Source of the DNA: Closterium sp. NIES-65
Lineage: Eukaryota; Streptophyta; Zygnematophyceae; Desmidiales; Closteriaceae
Length of the DNA stretch: 64,000 nucleotides
Reading direction: 5' to 3'
Assembly: GCA_948144175.1 (NCBI GenBank)
Contig: CANXME010000233.1
Location: forward strand, 1,629,800-1,693,799
The notes below the pieces were generated by a model that worked only from the letters and a program-made list of their open reading frames with translations, was not told the origin of the DNA and made no database searches. The translations under genes and the position numbers were made by a program. Of this stretch, positions 3,341-63,760 are shown in pieces. How positions within the stretch are numbered: position 1 is the first letter of the stretch; each line of letters begins with the position of its first letter.

Positions 3341-5264
3341 CCCTAACACCCGACCACGATGTCGGCTCCGCCCAAGCGAGGACGGGGCCAACACACAACT
3401 CCCGTTGACAGAAGGTTGGTGCAGAGGACGCGACCAGGATAGCGTGCTCGACCGAGAACGTCCCCTGTCGCGTTGACAAGCATCATCTCGTTGCTGTCGT
3501 TCTTCTTCAGCTGGCCGGCTGATAGCAGGCTCGCCTGCACGCCCGGGACGTAGAGTCAGGGGATGAGGACCTGCTTCCCGGCCTCCCCTTCCAGAGGGAC
3601 GGTGCCTCGGCCCTTAACGGTCTGCAGAGCCCCGTTGAAGCCACGCACATGCTTCACATTGCTGCTCAGTGCCATATCGACGAAGGCCTCCTTCGTCCCC
3701 ATGAGGTGGTGCGAGCAACGGCTATCGAGCAGAACCACCATCAGATTTGCCTGCACTGGTGCTGCGACCGCTTTGAAGTCTTCGCCGGCCTCTGGCGCCA
3801 GCGAAACAGTCTGCTCCACCACGCCAACTATTGAGCACGAAGCCTCTCCGTCGCCGTGACCCTTGTCGCCGGAAGAATGGATATCCTTCGTTGACGACGT
3901 CTTCTTCGATGTCTGCTTCTCCTTGCGCGGCTTCTCGTCCTGACTTTGACGACCGTTAGCCGGCCTTCCACAGCCTCCCTTGTGGTCATCGTCGTCAGCC
4001 TCCTCTCAGTCGGGGCAGTCCTAGGAGAGGTGGTAGGCGCTTCCACAGACCCAGCACTTGCGCCGTCGATCACCTTTTTACACGACCACTGTCACTAGTT
4101 GATTTCGCCCGGTCGGCATCCTTTGCTGGCCTCCCACCTCCACTACCACCTCCGCCAGACTTTCCGCGCTGCCCCTGCTGACGATTCTGCTCCGTTGGTG
4201 CAGTGTAATTCGCCTGTTGAAGGAACTCCGTGGGCTGTTCTGCCTCCTACATTGCCTCGTCTTGAAGGATGTAGCTGGTGATGGAGTCCTCGTCGAGGGA
4301 CTCATGCGTGCCGGGCACCATCACCATCCTCTTCATGAGGTTGTAGCTGCGCGCCAGGCCCTTGATGACATGGGTGATGTAGGACGCTGTAGAGTATTCG
4401 GCGCCCGCCATACGCATTTCAGCCAGTATACGTTGAGCACGGTTGCAGTAGTCCGTCGCCGACTCCTGCTCGCCCATCCGAATGTGTGTCATCTGCTCCT
4501 CCAGGTGTCCGATGTACAGGTCGTCCTTCGCCTGGTACGTCGACGGGATGAAGTGCCATGCTTGGTGACCAGCATCCAGCCACTCTCGACAGGACCTGAG
4601 CGCCAGCTGCACCACCGGTGAGCAGCACCTCGAGATGACCATCAAGGTGAGCAGTAGAGCAGCACAAAACACCCCGCGCAGCTCAACATCGTCCACGGGC
4701 GGAATCGGCACAGTGCCGTCGGCCAAGCCCTTCAGCCCGGCGACCTCCAGCTGAGGTTCTATCGACTCACTCCAAGTGATGAGGTCCCGTCGACCTTGCA
4801 GCGGTGTGACGGTGATCCGGTCTGGTGAAAACTTGAAGTAGCCATATGTCGGGGCGATCCTGCCTGCCGTCTTGTGCGTCGTCGCCGAGAACCCTCCACC
4901 GCTTCGTAGAGGAGAGCGACGTCGGCACCCGAGCTGCCTTCAGCCGCCGTCGACCACTGCACTCGCGCCTGACTCGTGTCGTCGCCACCGTCGACCTTGA
5001 TCACCCTTCTCTGCTTCGTGCCATCGTTGTCGCTGACTTGTGCACCGCTGTCGACCTCGTCGTCGACGCCACCTTCGTTTCGTACCGGACGAGGAGATGC
5101 AGAACAAGAAGGGTGCTCCGTCGCCCATTGTGCCCGGATGCCAAACTCGACGATTGCCCAGGGGATCGTCTCGTACTCGCCATCCTCAGTGCGTTTCCAC
5201 GAATCAGCCAAGCGTGCCTCCAAGGTGTCCGCTACTCCCGCATCAGCTACGGGGTCGACCATGG
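3341..5264 (-). pseudogene. copia-type gag-protease, unit B (degenerate)
   Basis: A diverged homologue of unit A. Minus-strand order: N-terminal segment (ADAGVADTLEARL) from about 5264; a frameshift near 4870-4900; the gag core (FKFSPDRITVTP, then IEPQLEVAGLKGLADGTV; about 4830-4247) with TYQAKDDLYIGHLEEQM; a zinc knuckle near 4010-4055 (CWVCGSAYHLS, then TAG, then DC), so broken by a stop; and a protease segment LLDSRCSHHLMGTKEAF (about 3690-3740) in which the DSG motif reads DSR. A TGA follows KQVLIP at about 3556, and the frame resumes until about 3341. No integrase follows; the GTCGAC-rich repeat begins instead. The unit is non-functional. Confidence 0.75.
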
Positions 5265-5499: not shown

Positions 5500-5760
5500 C
5501 CTGATGAGCCACGTCGACCACGTGGTGCCACGTCGGTCGACTTTGCCACAGCAGCCTCGACAACGTTCGTGCACCTCTGTAGAACTTCGTCGAGCAGGTA
5601 ACTCGGCCGACCGGGTAACGTCCCCGGCAACCCTGTAGGTTGATGACCTTCGTTATCGGAGGTCGACGACCTTCGTCGTCGCGGGTCGACGACCTTCGTC
5701 GTAGCGGGTCGACGACCTTCGTCGTAGCGAGTCGACGACCTTCGTCGACCACCTCGATCG
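5500..5760. repeat. upstream flank of unit B with a 23-bp tandem repeat
   Basis: Positions 5540-5640 resemble 2740-2830 upstream of unit A. From 5639 to about 5752 a 23-bp unit (core GTCGACGACCTTCGTCGT) repeats five times: starts at 5639 (variant GTTGATGACC), 5662, 5685, 5708 and 5731. Confidence 0.75.
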
Positions 5761-6039
5761 ACATTCTGAAATTTCAGCTCCTCATTTGTCGAAATTTTCT
5801 GCCAAAATTTGCCTATGCATTTGCGAGGGTGTGCACGGCCAGACGCGACCCTGCGAAAATGAACATCCGTAAATCTCTGCACCAGCTGCATCACTCGCAC
5901 ATGTGTACGATACGTTTGTGTTGCACCTGCGGATGCTTGAACTACTCTTACATGGGTTCCCTAGTACACCTCGTGTACAGGCAACCCAACCTGCGCAGAA
6001 GCTCCAGATTTCTCATACTGCAGAGGGTCGGCTGCACCT

Positions 6040-6118
6040 CCCACACACCCGACCACGAAGTCAGTTTTGCCCAGGCGAGGGCGAGGCCAACTTCCTTCAA
6101 CAGAGGGTTCCTTCTTAG
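6040..6118 (-). pseudogene. remnant of a third gag-protease unit
   Basis: About 75 bp resembles the 3' end of the protease segment of unit B (3345-3418), sharing cccgaccacgaNgtc and ggcgagg. It suggests the A/B tandem array once continued to the right. Confidence 0.5.
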
Positions 6119-6807
6119 GTATAATTGCATGTCCTCCCAATTGTCACCCTCGAGTATGATGGAATATGAAACAAATGTAAAAAATAAATATGAAAAGGAA
6201 TTTAAAAAAGGAACGAAGTCCTAATCGGCTTTCTCTAGGCGAGTGGCATCGACACTGCGCGAAAAGCCATAAAATTTGCGCCGCCACTTATTCGCTTCAC
6301 GTCGCAAACCAAGGCGGCGCCTCCCACCGCGGCCTTGCCTCCCTGGACTACTACTAATTAGCTTCCACGTGGCCATCATTTTACGGCGCGATACTTCTAC
6401 AAGCCGCGGATCGCTTTGATTGCGACTATGTGGCGAGATGGTGACCAGAGCCCAAAATTGGTTTAGGCCTACCCTTACAAATCAGGGTTCCAGCCCCTCC
6501 TTACCCCGACCCTAGGGTAAATTTTTTCGTACCCTGTTTGCAGCATAGTAAATCAACCACTAGCCTAATTTGAGAAGGGTAGTTTTAGGCCAACCCTATT
6601 TCAGTTACTATTTTGTGAGCTAAGTTATTTACAATGACATAATAAAGTAGCACTCACAAGGTCCATGAGCTCATAAAGAGCATCACATTCACAACACACC
6701 TTCTCAGTGCCACCCCCACTGCCTACTACTTCTTCTACAAACAGGGTGTTGCCTCATTGGGTGAAACAACCAATGAGGCAACATGGCGTGTCGCCGACAA
6801 CGACTCT
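6119..6807. other. non-coding flank of element C, with a hairpin
   Basis: AT-richer sequence without a credible gene. A perfect 13-bp inverted repeat GTTGCCTCATTGG / CCAATGAGGCAAC lies at 6748-6760 and 6770-6782 with a 9-nt loop. The last five bases, ACTCT (6803-6807), are the target-site duplication of element C. Confidence 0.6.
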
Positions 6808-24239: not shown

Positions 24240-25246
24240 GGAAAGAGCTCGCAGTGTCAGTGGGACTGTGCTCACCAGGCAGGGCAGGTCGTGCAGCTCT
24301 GCAGAAAGGCGGCTCAGCGACCGGGCGGCTCGGGTGCACAGCGGCTCGGCTCCCGGGCGGCTCGGCGGCTGGGCGGCTCGGGCGCAGGGCGGCTCGGCTC
24401 CCGGGCAGCTCGGCGGCAGGGCGGCTCGGGTGCAGGGCGGCTCGGCTCCCGGGCGGCTCGGCGGCAGGGCGGCTCGGGTCCCGGGCGGCTCGGCGCTGGG
24501 CGGCTCGGCTCCCGGGCGGTTCGGCTGCTGGGGCGGCTCTGCTGCTGGGGCGGCTCGGCCGGGAGATGCAGGGGCGGGGCCGTCAGGTGCAGCGGCGGGT
24601 CGACCGGTGCAGCGGCGGGCCGGCAGGTGCAGCGGCGGGGCCGTAGGGTGCAGCGGCGGGCCGACCAGGTGAGGCGGCGGGCCGTAGGGTGCAGCGGCGG
24701 GCCGTAGGGTGCAGCGGCGGGCCGGCAGGTGCAGCGGCGGGGCCGTCAGGTGAAGCGGCGGGCCGGCAGGTGCAGCGGCGGGCCGGCAGGTGCAGCGGCG
24801 GGGCCGTCAGGTGAGGCGGCGGGCCGTAGGGTGCAGCGGCGGGCCGTAGGGTGCAGCGGCGGGCCGGCAGGGCCGCGTCAGAGCCGGCGGCGGGGCCGCG
24901 TCAGTGGAGGCGGCGGGGCCGCGTCAAGCAGGCGGCGGGGCCGCGACGAAGCGGGCGGCAGGGCCGCGTCAGAGCCGGCGGCGGGGCCGCGTCAGTGGAG
25001 GCGGCGGGGCCGCGTCAAGCAGGCGGCGGGGCCGCGACGAAGCGGGCGGCAGGGCCGCGTCAGAGGAGGCGGCGGGGCCGCGTCAAGCAGGCGGCGGGGC
25101 CGCGATCAGGAGGGGTGGCGGGGCCGCGTCGGAGGGACAGCGGGGCCGCGAGGGAAAAGGCGACCCGAGGGGTCGCTAAAAAAAAAGGGCGCGCCTCGGG
25201 GCGCGCTTCGGTGGGCCCTAAAAAAACGGTCCTAAGGAAGGACCCG
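24240..25246 (-). promoter_or_regulatory. D: GC-rich leader with minisatellite
   Basis: Very GC-rich tandem repeats: gcggcgggccgtagggtgca units (about 24590-24880), cggggccgcgtca units (about 24885-25130) and cggctcggctcccgggcgg units (24320-24540). Near the PBS lie GGGCCC (25213-25218) and a hairpin GGTCCT (25228-25233) / AGGACC (25239-25244). No gene called. Confidence 0.7.
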
Positions 25247-50796: not shown

Positions 50797-51467
50797 TAAC
50801 TGAAAAATACTAGCTTTTTGTATTTCTCACTTAGTGGGTTCAGTGAAGGGTGGGTCGTGGGGACTGCGAAATACGAAAGCTGCGAAAACGTACTACCACC
50901 TGCGAAAGCTGGATGTAGTGTGGGTCGCCAAATGAGCAGTGTTACCAGAATCTTGACCAACCAATAAGGAACGCATTCAGAAAACCACGACGTTGCGAAG
51001 CTCCAATAATTGTTTCGCCTCACCGCGAAACTACTCGCTGGAGGAAACCCGAAACTGACAGAGCGATGTGTGGTTTGCAGCAGAAACTCACAATTATGGT
51101 CACCACGAACAATTCTCGTTGAACCCTCACGCTCGTGACGAACGTCGTTACACCTTGTTTCGTTGTCGTCGCCACGCAGTCAGTTCGCCAAGAGAACAAA
51201 ATAATTGTCACAGCCCCAATCTCGGATCGCTTCGCGATGGCGACTCGAGCCAAGCCCCAACTCCCAATTCTTTCCTACCACTCGTTCACCTATATTTATC
51301 TCCTGCTTCTGCACCTACTCTCATCAATATCGACTTATGCCCAGCGCCGAGAATCTGATATTCAAGCCTCCACGTTTCAAGTCTGGTCTTTAATTTTGAG
51401 CTGTTCCTAGTCACAAATAAAGAGCTCAGCTAGCCCTCAGCGAATCTTTCTTTCTCCCTACACTCCG
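50797..51467 (+). promoter_or_regulatory. upstream region of the expansin-like gene
   Basis: No credible gene. A TATA-like TATATTTAT lies at 51291-51299, about 170 bp before the ATG at 51468. Confidence 0.45.
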
Positions 51468-52188
51468 ATGGCTCTCGTTTCTAAAGTCGGTGGCCTGCTG
51501 TGCGTGGGAATTCTCCTGCTAGCTCTCGCCCTCAATCCTGCCGACGCCGTATCTGCCAGATCAGAAGACCTTAACAAAGGCGCCTCGTGCTACCCTGAGT
51601 TGAAGAATTTCGGCGACAATCCCTATTTCGACAAGGGCATGGTTGCTGAGATTCCCGTGAGCAAGTTCGACGCCGGGAAGGCCTGCGGAACGTGTTACCA
51701 GGTTACCTGCAAGAACAGCAAGAGGTGCAACAAGGGAGCTAGCGTGACGGTGCGCGCGATGAACAACGACGGCGACGGCTTCACGCTCAACAACCCCGCG
51801 TGGGACAAAATCGTCCGCGACCGATCCGGCAGCGTGGAGGTCGAGTACCGCAGCGTGGACTGCCCGACCAACGGCCGCGGCATGGCGGTCATGATCGAGA
51901 GGAGCAGCGGCCCGTACTACTTCGCACTTTACGTTCTGGGCGCGGCGAGGAACGCGGCGGTGGGGAAGGTGGAGCTGTCGACGGACGGCAAACAAGTGGA
52001 CGGGCATGACGAGGGGCGGGTGGGGCGCGCGGTGGGAGCTGCCCTCCGCCAAGGACGTCGTGGGCGCGGGGCGCAAGGTGAGCGTGCGCGTGACGGCGGC
52101 GGTCACCCAGCAGCAGGTGGTGCTGCAAGACGTGATTCCGAGCAAGTGGAGCGCCGGGAAGACGTACGAGAGCAGCTCCAACTTCTGA
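51468..52188 (+). CDS. expansin-like secreted protein, single exon, one frameshift
   Basis: Expansins loosen cell walls non-enzymatically in the apoplast. ATG 51468; signal peptide of about 27 residues (LLCVGILLLALALNPADA). The first domain (double-psi beta barrel, GH45-like) shows KACGTCYQVTCKNS, NNPAWDKIV, GSVEVEYRSVDC and GPYYFALYVLG. The usual HFD motif is absent (GDGFTLNNPAW), as in expansin-like rather than canonical expansins. The frame then slips by one base near 51989-51994 (ggcaaacaag). The second, CBM63-like domain continues from about 51994 in the other frame: KWTGMTRGGWGARWELP, VSVRVTAAV, LQDVIPSKWSAGKTYESSSNF, TGA at 52186-52188. The slip may be an assembly error or a real mutation. 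No intron is needed. AATAAA lies at 52291. Confidence 0.85.
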
Positions 52189-52506
52189 ACGGCGTAGGAG
52201 TGCTGCGACGGGAGACAGAGAGTGCTTCCAACGAATGAATGCAGCTCCAACTTCTAGATGGTGTGTCGCATGAGAGCTCGAGCTCTTCCAAATAAATGCA
52301 AATAATTGCTCAGCCGGCTAGCCGTGTCGATGCAGAGGACTGGCATGAGGATGCATGCTCTTAGGATGATAGTAATAATTGATCAATCCGCTCGCCTTTG
52401 TAGGAGCACCTACAGCTGCGTGGTTTGTTTTGAACCAGCATACTTGACAAAAACAAAAAAAACCTTTCCACTTCAACAGCCAGACAGTTGTGATTGATGC
52501 TGAATA
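52189..52506 (+). other. 3' region of the expansin-like gene
   Basis: AGCTCCAACTTC, the last codons, recurs at about 52242-52253 followed by TAG, so the gene end is partly duplicated. AATAAA at 52291-52296 is a possible polyadenylation signal. Nothing else seen. Confidence 0.5.
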
Positions 52507-58894: not shown

Positions 58895-61870
58895 CTAGGA
58901 AGACGACAGGTGCAAGTGCACACGAGGAGAGGCAGAAGGGGAAAAGAAGAAGTGGGGAGTGCAGAAGAGAGGAGAGAGAAGTGGCAGAGCTATGAATTTG
59001 CAGAGGAGAGAGAGAGGAGGAGGAGGGGAGAGCAGAAGAGCGGAGGCAGAGAAGGGGGCATCACACACACAGCTCACACGCCTCACAAGACATTGCGGGT
59101 TGGTGTGCTCACCTCTTTGCCTCCTTGGCCTCGCTCGTCCCTGCTTCCGCTGCTGCTGCCTTGGCAGCTGCCTTCCTCTTTCTCTTCTGCTTCCTTCTCC
59201 ACGCTGCCCCCTTCCCCTGTCCCTGTTCCTGCCCCTGCCCCTGCCCCTGCCCCTGCCCCTGCCCCTGCCCCTGCCCCTGATCCTGCTTCTGTTCGTCATA
59301 GCCCCTTGTCCTTCATCCATCGCACCTCCCAATCCTTGCCTTGTTCCCGCCACACCTCCACCACACCCATCCCACGTCCAGCCCTCACGGCCTCCTCCCT
59401 GCATCTCTGCATCTCCACCCACTGCCTCCATTTTCACTGCCACCCTGCACTCTTGCGCGCCCGTCCCCACACCTGCTGCCACGTCTGCAACTGCCTCTGC
59501 TGCTGCTGCCTGTGCTGTGCCTGCTTCTACAGTCACCACTGCTTCGACCTTCACTTGTGCTCCCGTTGTTGCTGCTGCTGGTCCAGAGGCTCCTGGCTCA
59601 GCAGCAGCACTATAGTTCAGCAGCATGCTCCCAGTATCACCATCACCCTGCACGCCCATTCCCAACCCTTCCCACTCCTCCTCCTCCTGCTTCGGCCTCC
59701 TCTGACCCCCCCCAACTTGGTGCCCTCCCGCCTGCCCACATGACTCCGCCCTTGCTCCTTCCCCCTCTCCCGCGTCCCTCGCACGGCCAACTGGCAACAC
59801 TGATGCTGCAGGAAGGGGAGCTGGCAGCGCAAGGGGGGAATTATCAGCAGCGCCAGGAGCAGGAGGGGGAGCGTCAGGAGCAGGAGGAGGAGGGGCCGGG
59901 AGCATGACCCCCCGTGAACACCTCGCCTTGCCCGCTTGCGCTTGCACGACCCCAGTTGAGTCCACACGTGAGCAGCTGCTCCTGCCTCTGCCTCTTCGCC
60001 TTGGCCCTCCTCTTCTTCCTCCCATTCTCCCCTGGCCTTCCCGCGTCCGCACCCCCCTCCCACCCATCCTCGCCCTGCTGCTCCCCCTTCTGCTGCTCCT
60101 CACCCCTCCCCTGAGCCAAACTACTCTCCCCCATGCCCCATCCTGACCTCCCCTGTGCACACGAACCATACCCCCTTGCCCATCCCTCCTCGCTCCTTCC
60201 CTGCCCCACTGATTCTCCCCACCTCCTCGCCCCCATCCACTCTCGCTCGCTCCTCCTGTCATCCCCCCCCCCATCCACTCCCCATCCTCCTCCTCCTTCC
60301 GCTCTCCATCTTTTTCTCTCACCTCCTAATTCCTCCTCTTGTTCGCTTCCCCATGCACCTTCCCCTCCCCCACCCCATCCCTCCTCAATCTTTCTCTCAA
60401 CTCGGCCTTCTCTCCCTCCGCCCATCTCTCCTCTTTCACTCTGTTCGATACTCCCTTTCCCAATCCCCATTCTCCCCCTTCCCTTCCTTCCCTGTCCAAT
60501 CCTTGTCCAGTTCCCCAAACCTCTGCTCCCCCTTGTCCCCATGACCCAACCCCCCCTCTCCCCCTGTTCCCCTCTCGCAACACCTCTTCCTCTCCCTGCT
60601 GCTCCCCCTCGCCTCCTCCCTCAGCCTCCTCTCTCACGTTCACAAAAACCCGTGCCTCGTTTCCGTCCCTCCCCTCTCCCTCCATCGCCCCCTCTTTAGA
60701 CCCCTTCTCTTGCACCGCTCCTCCACCCCCCGTCACAGCCCTATCCTGACCTCCTAACCTCATCTCTTCCTCTATTTCTTTCTCTGCCTCTGCGGCCCCC
60801 CTGGGGCCTCCCACACCCTCATTGCCATCCCTCACTGCATCCCTCCCTCCTCCTGCGTCTGACTCCATGCCAACCTCCTCAACCTTTTGCTGCTCCTCGT
60901 CTCTTTCCTCCGCAGCACCACCTGCATCATCTTCCCCCTCCATTTCTGTCCCTTTTTTTCCCACCTGCTGCTCCCCTTTCCCAGCCAACCCTCGCCTCTC
61001 CTCCACCTTTCCCCCTCCCTTCCCGACTTCCCCTCTCTTGCCCCCACCATCTCTGCTCTCGCCCCTCCCTCCCCGCCCCCCTCCAAGCCAGCAGCACTGG
61101 CAGCACCAGCAGCACCAGCAGCATCAGCAGCACCAGTACCACCAGCAGCACCAGTACCACCAGCAGCACCAGCAGCACCAGCAGCACCAGCAACACCAGC
61201 AGCACTGGTAGCAGCAAAAGCACCGTCAGCATCATCTAAGCTCAAATCACCACTCCCTGCACCCACATCCCTGTCCCCTCCACTGCCTCCCCCCTCTTGC
61301 AGTCCCACAAGCCCCTCACTGCTCTTCGGCCTTCCCACATCCGATGCCCCATCACCTCCTTCCCCTTCCCCTTTCCTTCCAGTCGAGCCAGCAGCCACAG
61401 GCGCACCTACAACCGTTACTTCGCCCCCTTGTTCCTTCTCTTGTTGCAATCCCTGTCCCCCCTGCCCCTTGCCCTCGCCCTGCCCCTGCCCCTGCCCTGC
61501 CCTGCCCCTGCCCCTGCCCCTGCCCCTCGCCCCTGCCCCTGCCCCATGCCCCTGGCCCCTGCCCCTGCCCCTGCCCCTGCCCTGCCCCTGCCCTGCCCTG
61601 CCCCTGCCCCTGCCCCTGCCCTGCCCCTGCGCCCCGCCCCCTTGTGCCGCAGTCCACCCAATGGTCTGCAGGTGCAGGCGGTGCTGAGCCCAGGCCTGCT
61701 GCAGAGCCCTCTCCCGCCCCGCCAGCTCCCGCTCCACCTCAAACACCTGCCTCTGCTGCGCCGCCACCGCTGCCTGGGTGGTTCCAGTTTCAGAGGTAGG
61801 TTGAGCAAGATGAGCAAGATGAGCAAGATGGGTGCAAGGGGTTGAATGCGTAACTTGTGGATGGGACACA
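58895..61870 (-). CDS. host coiled-coil gene: low-complexity part and one coiled-coil exon
   Basis: 61790-61640 reads VAAQQRQVFEVERELAGRER, ALQQAWAQHRLHLQTIGW: a heptad-rich coiled coil, likely exonic. The rest is low complexity: (CCCCTG)n at 61455-61640 and 59221-59282 (GQGQGRGRG peptide), (CAGCAC)n at 61090-61215 (AAG-rich peptide), then Glu/Gly/Arg-rich frames 61006-60326 and 60322-58895. Both strands stay open because of composition, so I cannot tell exon from intron. AAAGAG/GTGAGC near 59112 is a plausible donor. Confidence 0.35.
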
Positions 61871-62224
61871 TATAGGAGAAGCTCGTTTGGTATGATGATG
61901 TGGAAAAACGTGGGGGATAGATACAGGAATTCGTTTGGTATGGCAAACCAATGTGAGTCAATTAAGGTTCATCCTTGTAACGGAAATGTTAGCAGCAACT
62001 TATGAATCGACGAGTTGCTGCAGGTGAAGGAGTTATAGATTGGGCCAGGAACTCTGTAGGCAGTCGAGCTTCTACCGACTCAAGGGAAGTGTGCATGGCT
62101 GTTCAAGGAAAGCACTTCCAATTGCAAGTGGTGCTTACTCATCGATAGGCACGTGTGCATCTTGCCTTGAAATGCCCCCGCAACTGGCTCTTGCCCCCTC
62201 AACCAAGCTCGCATTGCTCACCAG
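61871..62224. other. intron-like, nothing recognised
   Basis: AT-richer sequence between the coiled-coil exon and the 30-bp array. No repeat or gene seen. Confidence 0.4.
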
Positions 62225-62643
62225 CCTTACCCTTCCTCTGCACATCCCTCACCTGGTTTGCCTGTAGCTGCACATCCCTCACCTGGTTTGCCTGTAGCTG
62301 CACATCCCTCACCTGGTTTGCCTGTAGCTGCACATCCCTCACCTGGTTTGCCTGTAGCTGCACATGCCTCACCTGGTTTGCCTGTAGCTGCACATGCCTC
62401 ACCTGGTTTGCCTGTAGCTGCACATCCCTCACCTGGTTTGCCTGTAGCTGCACATCCCTCACCTGGTTTGCCTGTAGCTGCACATCCCTCACCTGGTTTG
62501 CCTGTAGCTGCACATCCCTCACCTGGTTTGCCTGTAGCTGCACATGCCTCACCTGGTTTGCCTGTAGCTGCACATGCCTCACCTGGTTTTGCGTGTAGCT
62601 GCGCATGCCTCACCTGGTTTGCGTGTAGCTGCACATGCCTCAC
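62225..62643 (-). repeat. 30-bp tandem array carrying a splice donor in each unit
   Basis: About 14 units of cacatccctcacctggtttg plus cctgtagctg. On the minus strand each unit reads GCAAACCAG/GTGAGGGATG with CAGCTACAG, so each repeats the exon end and a consensus 5' splice site, plus an acceptor-like CTACAG. Units alternate between GGGATG and GGCATG. Read through, the peptide is the decad QLQANQVRDV / QLQANQVRHV. Confidence 0.88.
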
Positions 62644-62688
62644 CTGGTTTGCGTGTAGCTGCTGCTCCCTGCGGCACAGATCAGCCAT
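62644..62688 (-). CDS. host coiled-coil gene: 45-bp exon MADLCRREQQLHANQ
   Basis: The acceptor CCATCCCAG ends at 62689; the exon runs 62688-62644, 15 codons, phase 0, to donor CAG/GTGAGG. Charged, coiled-coil-like. It lies directly upstream of the 30-bp array, which copies its last 13 or so bases and the donor. Confidence 0.65.
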
Positions 62689-62989
62689 CTGGGATGGTAC
62701 GGAGGGACGGGGAAGACATGGAAGGGGAGGGGAAGGGACGGGAGGGAGGGAAATGGAGGGAAAGGAGAGCAAAACTATCACCGTGCATGCAAGCCTTTCG
62801 CAAGTTGACAAACGACAGAAGAGGTCAGGGACAGCAGACGGCGACAGTTTGTGGAAAAAGAAACACAGGTGTTTTGGGAACTTTGCTCCCTCCTGCAACA
62901 TGCCCTGCTCGCCCATATCTTCTCAATATCGGACCGTGCTTTCTCACGCTCTGTCTCTTGCTCACCTTCGCCTCCCTGTGAAGCCACTT

Positions 62990-63275
62990 TTCCGCCACCA
63001 GAAATCGTGGCAGCCACAGCAGCCGTGCCTCTCTGCTTCTGCCACTCCACCTCTTGCGCCCTCACCTTCTCCTCCCGCACCCTCACTTTCTCCTCCCTCT
63101 CCTTCACCCTCTCCTCCTCGCCCTCACTCGCTCCTCCCTCTGCGTCACCCCTTCCTCCCTCTCCTTCACCCTCTCCTCCTCGCCCTCACTCGCTCCTCCT
63201 TCTGCGTCACCCCTTCCTCCCTCTCCCCGCGGCTGCCTCTCTGGCTGCCACCGCTGCTTGCTGTGCCGCCATGGT
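62990..63275 (-). CDS. host coiled-coil gene: Glu/Arg-rich coiled-coil exon with a 62-bp duplication
   Basis: The minus frames read MAAQQAAVAAREAAAGRG from an ATG at 63273, then VKEREEGVTQREERVRARRR and VKEREEKVRVREEKVRAQEV, then EWQKQRGTAAVAATISGGGK. A 62-bp unit (gccctcactcgctcctcc...) starts at 63120 and 63182. Since 62 is not a multiple of three, the duplication changes frame and one copy must be intronic or frame-breaking. Confidence 0.5.
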
Positions 63276-63340
63276 GCTGCGAGCAGGGCGGAGAACGGGG
63301 TAAAGGACATGGGGGACCACACACACATACATGCTGTGCG

Positions 63341-63374: not shown

Positions 63375-63589
63375 TATGCAGCCTCCATGAGCGTAGATAA
63401 AATAAAGGTGCGCTAAGAAGGTCATATTTCCAACAAATCAGATGATGGTAATGCACACCAGGCCCCATGGAGCGAATTTGTGCATGAACCACCATATCAC
63501 CTTGAAGTCAAAACGTGTTTGAGGGGCTCCATGCATGGCGACGAGGCTCATGCTATGCCAAGCCACACCACACCAGCCACGGGGCTTAC

Positions 63590-63760
63590 TCAATCTGCTG
63601 CGAGGTGACTTTTCAGTCGACTCACAACTCACCACGTCACGCCACACCACACCAGCCAGCAACGGCACTTACTCGATCTGCTGCGCCATGCTGGCTGCAG
63701 CTGCCGCCACTGCCACGCCACGCCCTCCATCACTCCCTCACCACCACTGCCCCCGCCACC
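63590..63760 (-). CDS. host coiled-coil gene: possible 5' exon (MAQQIE) with a duplicated donor
   Basis: ATG at 63689, MAQQIE, then donor GATCGA/GTAAGT (exon end 63673). A second copy GATTGA/GTAAGC lies 83 bp downstream (exon-like end 63590), inside a duplication that includes gccacaccacaccagcc (63562-63578 and near 63640-63657). The frame is also open upstream of the ATG, so the true start is unknown. Upstream sequence to 64000 shows nothing recognisable. Confidence 0.45.

Follow-up and report, generated by a model that had tools for sequence, protein, structure and literature searches.

The window, the whole 64,000-nucleotide stretch of Closterium sp. NIES-65 DNA that was analysed, is the end of contig C233. 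On its minus strand lies a predicted coiled-coil gene in which a 30-bp minisatellite (62238..62662) starts inside a short exon. Four exons (A–D) can be placed, and when joined by hand they join in frame. Exon A ends at 63673..63690 with MAQQI, in phase 2, and is followed by the donor GTAAGT at 63672; a degenerate second copy of this exon end and its donor is located 83 bp downstream (63555..63602). Exon B (62966..63276), placed from the sequence and the sister copies of the locus, encodes coiled coil and includes a coding repeat. A pyrimidine-rich stretch with an AG acceptor (62689..62765) precedes exon C (62644..62688; MADLCRREQQLHANQ), a 45-bp exon in phase 0 on both sides that is predicted from the frame, the acceptor, and the donor. 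Exon C ends at the first donor of the array, CAG|GTGAGG (62638..62646), of which 62643 is the first intron base. The predicted intron C (61774..62643) would hold 13 of the 14 repeat copies, and the start of exon D (60832..61773; AAVAAQQRQVFEVERELAG...) has a frame that stops early in the window copy. A donor-like GTAAGG (62225..62230) is positioned just beyond the array.

Six open reading frames around the gene have no Pfam match at an E-value of 0.1, and a search with residues 1-200 of the gene product finds no relative at an E-value of 0.001 among 7990 scored candidates.

Anatomy of the array

Tandem Repeats Finder describes the minus-strand array at 62238-62662 by a period of 30, 14.1 copies, and 97% matches. 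It contains 14 identical donors, with first intron bases at 62643, 62613, 62582, and onward to 62252, and the AG/GT splice signal is CAG|GTGAGG in 14 of 14 units. The repeat unit, measured on the sister copy L010, combines 19 nt from the end of the exon with the first 11 nt of the intron, and the last 19 nt of exon C recur in it. In accordance, two claims of the sequence-only reading stand: that about 14 copies of a 30-bp unit each carry a donor, and that the unit repeats the end of the adjacent 45-bp exon together with its donor. The donor word CAGGTGAGG has 17 occurrences in the window, of which 14 fall within the array; 100 dinucleotide-preserving shuffles give 1.71 on average and six at most.

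An acceptor-like CTACAG had been ascribed to every unit. It is present in 11 of the 14 copies, where it is not preceded by a pyrimidine tract; the other three, namely the copy in the exon and the two that follow it, have CTACACG. A C/G variant runs along the units as CC GGGG CC GGGG, a pattern that looks like the duplication of a six-unit (180-bp) block. The window copy has one unit of 31 bp, which contains an extra base in an A run, and donors 3-14 of this copy would give exon lengths of 1 mod 3.

The array might instead be exonic and read through in translation, giving the protein a decad repeat, in agreement with the frame QLQANQVRDV, which is open through all units in L010. However, this frame stops soon after the array in L010 (...RKGKAGEQCELG), and the only strong donor past the array, at 62230, would end an exon (457 nt in L010 and 458 nt in the window, counted by hand) that is out of phase with exon D. 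We regard translation through the array as highly improbable.

Sister copies of the locus

Three further copies of the locus are present in the 874-Mb assembly, on contigs C1901 (L010), C1189, and C60 (L012). All three have 30-bp units only and 14 donors, so that an array length of 14 donors is found in four of four nearly identical assembled copies. The statement that any donor could be used without a frame change is true of each sister copy (14 of 14 donors) and untrue of the window copy, in which the frame is kept for 2 of 14.

Compared with L010 and L012, the window copy has 21 gap runs and 2 mismatches over 2.3 kb, and the gaps are mostly one base, often in short runs. This pattern looks like long-read consensus error, and therefore the extra base of the 31-bp unit is probably not biological; decay of the copy would be the alternative. 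Exon B is open in both L010 and L012. The last exon, D, is open for 899 codons in L010 and 887 codons in L012, and stops after 313 codons in the window copy and 154 codons in C1189. The model of a 45-bp phase-0 exon in a coiled-coil gene, which had also been read from the letters, is supported by its agreement with the two sister copies that have long open frames. For the C. peracerosum-strigosum-littorale complex, the accessible text describes assembly sizes of 438-975 Mb and extensive copy number variation (PMC10407611), and such variation would fit the four copies found here.

The sister copies also bear on whether the array is an artefact or a chance likeness, that is, an assembly error or an ordinary intronic repeat resembling a donor. 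The position at a contig end and the indel-rich window copy speak for an artefact. Against it, four assembled copies agree on 14 donors, the 17 donor words are reached in no shuffle, and similar arrays start at the exon ends of conserved genes (see below). We give this explanation almost no weight.

Two other repeats of the gene also differ between copies. The coding repeat of exon B (window 63059-63227; L010 5292-5463) has a unit of 63 bp in L010, corresponding to 21 codons or three heptads and present in 2.7 copies, and of 62 bp in the window. In exon D, a hexamer repeat (window 61459-61640) encodes a Gly-Gln run in L010 and L012, with a different length in each.

Donor arrays at other loci

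A DNA search of the genome with the window array gives 24 matches, which comprise the four copies of the locus and further arrays. Seven further loci were examined: L013/L014 and L017/L018, which are paralogues (89% identity over 1295 bp), L015/L016 (myosin), and L019 (Core-2/I-branching enzyme). L017 encodes a legume lectin domain. The array that recruited each of these loci has a donor in its unit, as expected from the query; the other arrays there were not so selected.

In the myosin locus L015, the exons at the 30-, 99-, 34-, and 71-bp arrays have ends that coincide exactly with the first donor, and a 35-bp doublet also carries the donor motif. In L019, exons E1-E7 have seven donors, five of which are repeated (20 bp ×2, 28 bp ×9, 26 bp ×24-25, 99 bp ×11, and 34 bp × about 5, the 34-bp array having altered donors in later copies), and the donors of E1 and E4 are single. 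In L013, a strong donor motif is found in the 25-bp array only, among ten arrays listed. Across the comparable arrays measured, 4 of 11 periods are multiples of three. Four compact kinesin loci, picked for shortness from 135 family matches, contain no donor array of at least three copies, and one of them, L039, contains a degenerate doublet of a donor. Donor arrays are thus frequent in this genome and not universal.

Acceptor-side boundaries are duplicated too in L015: the units of three arrays (86, 149, and 152 bp; L015 3137-3525, 3715-4083, and 5383-5770) take in acceptors together with exon starts, or entire exons. L016 has at 5597-5787 a 36-bp (12-codon) array of 5.3 copies at 100%, with a unit that matches a myosin exon sequence; the array is not listed in L015. 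In L019, a stretch of exon E4, CTGTGGGACTT, occurs four times at 3700-4270, as if exon-intron blocks had been duplicated as well, and an intronic 20-bp array at 5564-6284 has 36 copies at 100% and a unit without an obvious donor.

Array length differs by whole units between L015 and L016, the two assembled copies of the myosin locus, with 20 versus 15 donors in the 30-bp array and 11 versus 7 in the 34-bp array; the 99-bp array has 5.6 versus 2.6 copies. The difference is larger between paralogues: L013 has 64 donors in its 25-bp array, and L017 has 2-3 in the corresponding one.

Tandem donors across the genome

Three tandem CAGGTRAG words, 8-38 bases apart, give 41,641 matches genome-wide, which overlap within arrays. 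The reversed pattern gives 983 matches, and CAGGTYAG triplets, which differ only at +3, give 1,843, those listed being mostly from a few large arrays. Single words number 17 (R), 12 (Y), and 5 (reversed) in a sample of 182 kb that has one donor triplet; small as this sample is, word frequency does not explain the ratio of the triplets.

By hand count, the CAGGTRAG matches listed represent 18 arrays, six of which are GC-rich and transposon-like. The other 12 arrays have periods of 19, 15, 18, 32, 29, 31, 24, 39, 22, 20, 19, and 19 bp, 4 of the 12 being multiples of three. Five stretches, covering six of these 12, were fetched. In four of the five, an open frame runs up to the first donor and ends there; L043 is ambiguous. 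The products at first donors are a RING-like protein (Pfam, below cut-off), an SRP40_C protein (above cut-off), an Arg/Asp-rich stretch that has no Pfam match, and a fourth that we take to be a TMEM115-like protein, a candidate with no convincing Pfam match. The unit pattern has 0 matches in genome_contigs and 0 in viral_contigs.

A random sample of 13 stretches (120 kb, L020-L032) consists mostly of transposon-like or satellite repeats. Long satellites with units of 16-17 bp are present in L028 (1-10000), L023 (14-7998), and L024 (1-6668), the longest having up to 624 copies at 99% and filling a whole 10-kb sample.

The excess is specific for a purine at +3, as would also be expected if the tandem donors worked together, for example by offering several U1 binding sites that strengthen splicing or suppress premature polyadenylation. 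Counted by cells, which are not independent, donor 9-mers vary less than the rest of the units (13/1440 versus 100/3970), and this would fit some function. By distinct variants, however, there is no significant deficit in the donor 9-mer (9 over 99 columns versus 39 over 267, p 0.22, 11 arrays). In addition, GT is lost in some units, as in 3 of the 25 that make up L019's 26-bp array, and the four kinesin loci are without such arrays. A group function is accordingly improbable in our judgement.

Donor usage

To determine which donor is most likely used, we turn to genes with conserved products. With splicing at the first donors of the 99-bp and 34-bp arrays, L015 yields a stretch of 86 residues whose alignment to 7dhw and 7kch has no gap. 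L019, when spliced at first donors, gives a product of 196 residues that matches PF02485 at 3.7e-55 over residues 2-196. Its closest proteins include those of Closterium sp. NIES-64 (64% identity over the whole query), NIES-65, and NIES-67, and its alignment with three NIES-64 proteins has no insertion at the array-bearing junctions; NIES-64 protein P0003 has two one-residue insertions, both away from these junctions. The NIES-64 proteins are products of other genes and support the exon ends of L019, not the splicing of L019 itself. L041, when joined at the first donor of a 24-bp array, matches SRP40_C at 7.8e-17. Most of the other donors in the 26-, 28-, and 34-bp arrays would break the frame, and those in the 24- and 99-bp arrays would insert residues. 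All three conserved genes fit first-donor use, provided that the copies are functional, and some of them could be non-functional. By analogy with these genes, the first donor (62643) is most likely the one used in the window gene.

The sequence-only reading offered two functional options for the array, a tunable exon-length device or neutrality. In the first, several of the 14 donors would be used, adding decads (VRxVQLxANQ) to the coiled coil in ten-residue steps. The 14 identical donors, in frame in three of the four assembled copies, and the frame open through the array in L010 are as this proposal would predict, and in the minisatellite of IFI6 downstream units do serve as donors, according to the accessible text (PMC4526556). 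However, the window copy is out of frame past donor 2, and donor copy number differs as widely as 2-3 versus 64 between paralogues. Because conserved proteins are obtained by first-donor splicing in three genes and only 4 of 11 comparable periods are multiples of three, we consider an exon-length device unlikely. The proposal of such a device is thus unsupported, and the second option, neutrality, fits better.

Proposed origin and relation to known minisatellites

We propose, with a probability of roughly 75%, that the window array belongs to the mirage type of minisatellite, is spliced at its first donor, and is in other respects a neutral, tolerated passenger. The seed would be the end of exon C (19 nt) and the first 11 nt of the intron, tandemly duplicated across the 5' splice site. 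Slippage or unequal exchange, including the duplication of a 180-bp block, may then have expanded the array into the intron. If the exon-proximal donor is used, the remaining copies would lie inside the intron and be removed with it, and the array would be a tolerated, probably neutral passenger, one of many in a genome in which duplications of 5' splice sites are frequent. The anatomy, the sister copies, the excess of tandem donors, the exon ends of conserved genes, and the unit-wise length differences elsewhere are observed; to these the proposal adds first-donor use in this gene, neutrality, and the mode of array expansion, which we infer.

The name mirage comes from amphioxus, where, in the accessible text of two reports, minisatellite-like tandem duplications across exon/intron boundaries are described in Adh3, in the globins BflGb6 and BflGb9, in TnC, and, in imperfect form, in PGBD5 (PMC3087553, PMC3902484). 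Many units, not all, contain AG/GT; haplotypes differ in copy number, regular splicing is reported to be undisturbed, and somatic instability is reported at the Adh3 mirage (PMC3087553, PMC3902484). The window array resembles them, as far as they are described there, in having a tandem unit with AG/GT that crosses an exon/intron boundary, the exon being predicted here from frame and splice signals. Mirages are described from single animal genes and at both 5' and 3' boundaries, whereas the algal arrays are found in a streptophyte, are many per genome by pattern count, and have the 5' splice site in the unit. Copy number varies between the two assembled copies of the myosin locus and is 14 in all four copies of the window locus; undisturbed splicing would be in line with the exon ends of the conserved genes.

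The IFI6 (6-16, G1P3) minisatellite has a unit of 12 nt. Two downstream units act as donors there, and three mRNA species result (Turri 1995, as related in the accessible text of PMC4526556). On that account it is likewise a short tandem repeat that repeats a splice donor at an exon-intron boundary, but, unlike in IFI6, use of downstream donors looks unlikely in the window array. Intron gain by tandem genomic duplication of AGGT, for example in potato RdRp, is described in the accessible text of another report (PMC4974935). The likeness, so far as described, is a tandem duplication that carries splice-site sequence; the difference is that the window array would lengthen an existing intron.

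A single array of this kind belongs to a known type, the mirage, with the IFI6 minisatellite as a functional precedent; the novelty lies in how many such arrays one streptophyte alga carries. The literature searched, which omits most subscription papers, turned up no description of them for algae or plants, and the papers found describe boundary minisatellites in lancelets, one gene at a time. Having so many in a single genome of an alga would open two questions to direct test: what makes tandem duplications begin at 5' splice sites, and by what means a spliceosome selects a single donor where as many as 64 nearly identical ones stand in one array. Donor arrays would also lengthen introns and could serve as length markers for telling strains apart.

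A broader and more speculative proposal is that 5' splice sites are genome-wide hot spots of tandem duplication in this algal lineage, with transcription, splicing, or the donor sequence itself involved in the process. Minisatellites seeded by donors would then enlarge introns, and a spliceosome that strictly takes the first donor would tolerate dozens of near-identical donors in a row. We find this possible and, on balance, doubtful.

Other features of the window

At 24567-24871, the window contains a GC-rich, transposon-like minisatellite in which CAGGTGAGG occurs twice (24666 and 24808). GC-rich arrays like this one form part of the genome-wide count of donor triplets. At 51411-52238 lies an open frame with a match to DPBB_1 (3.6e-07), presumably encoding an expansin-like protein.
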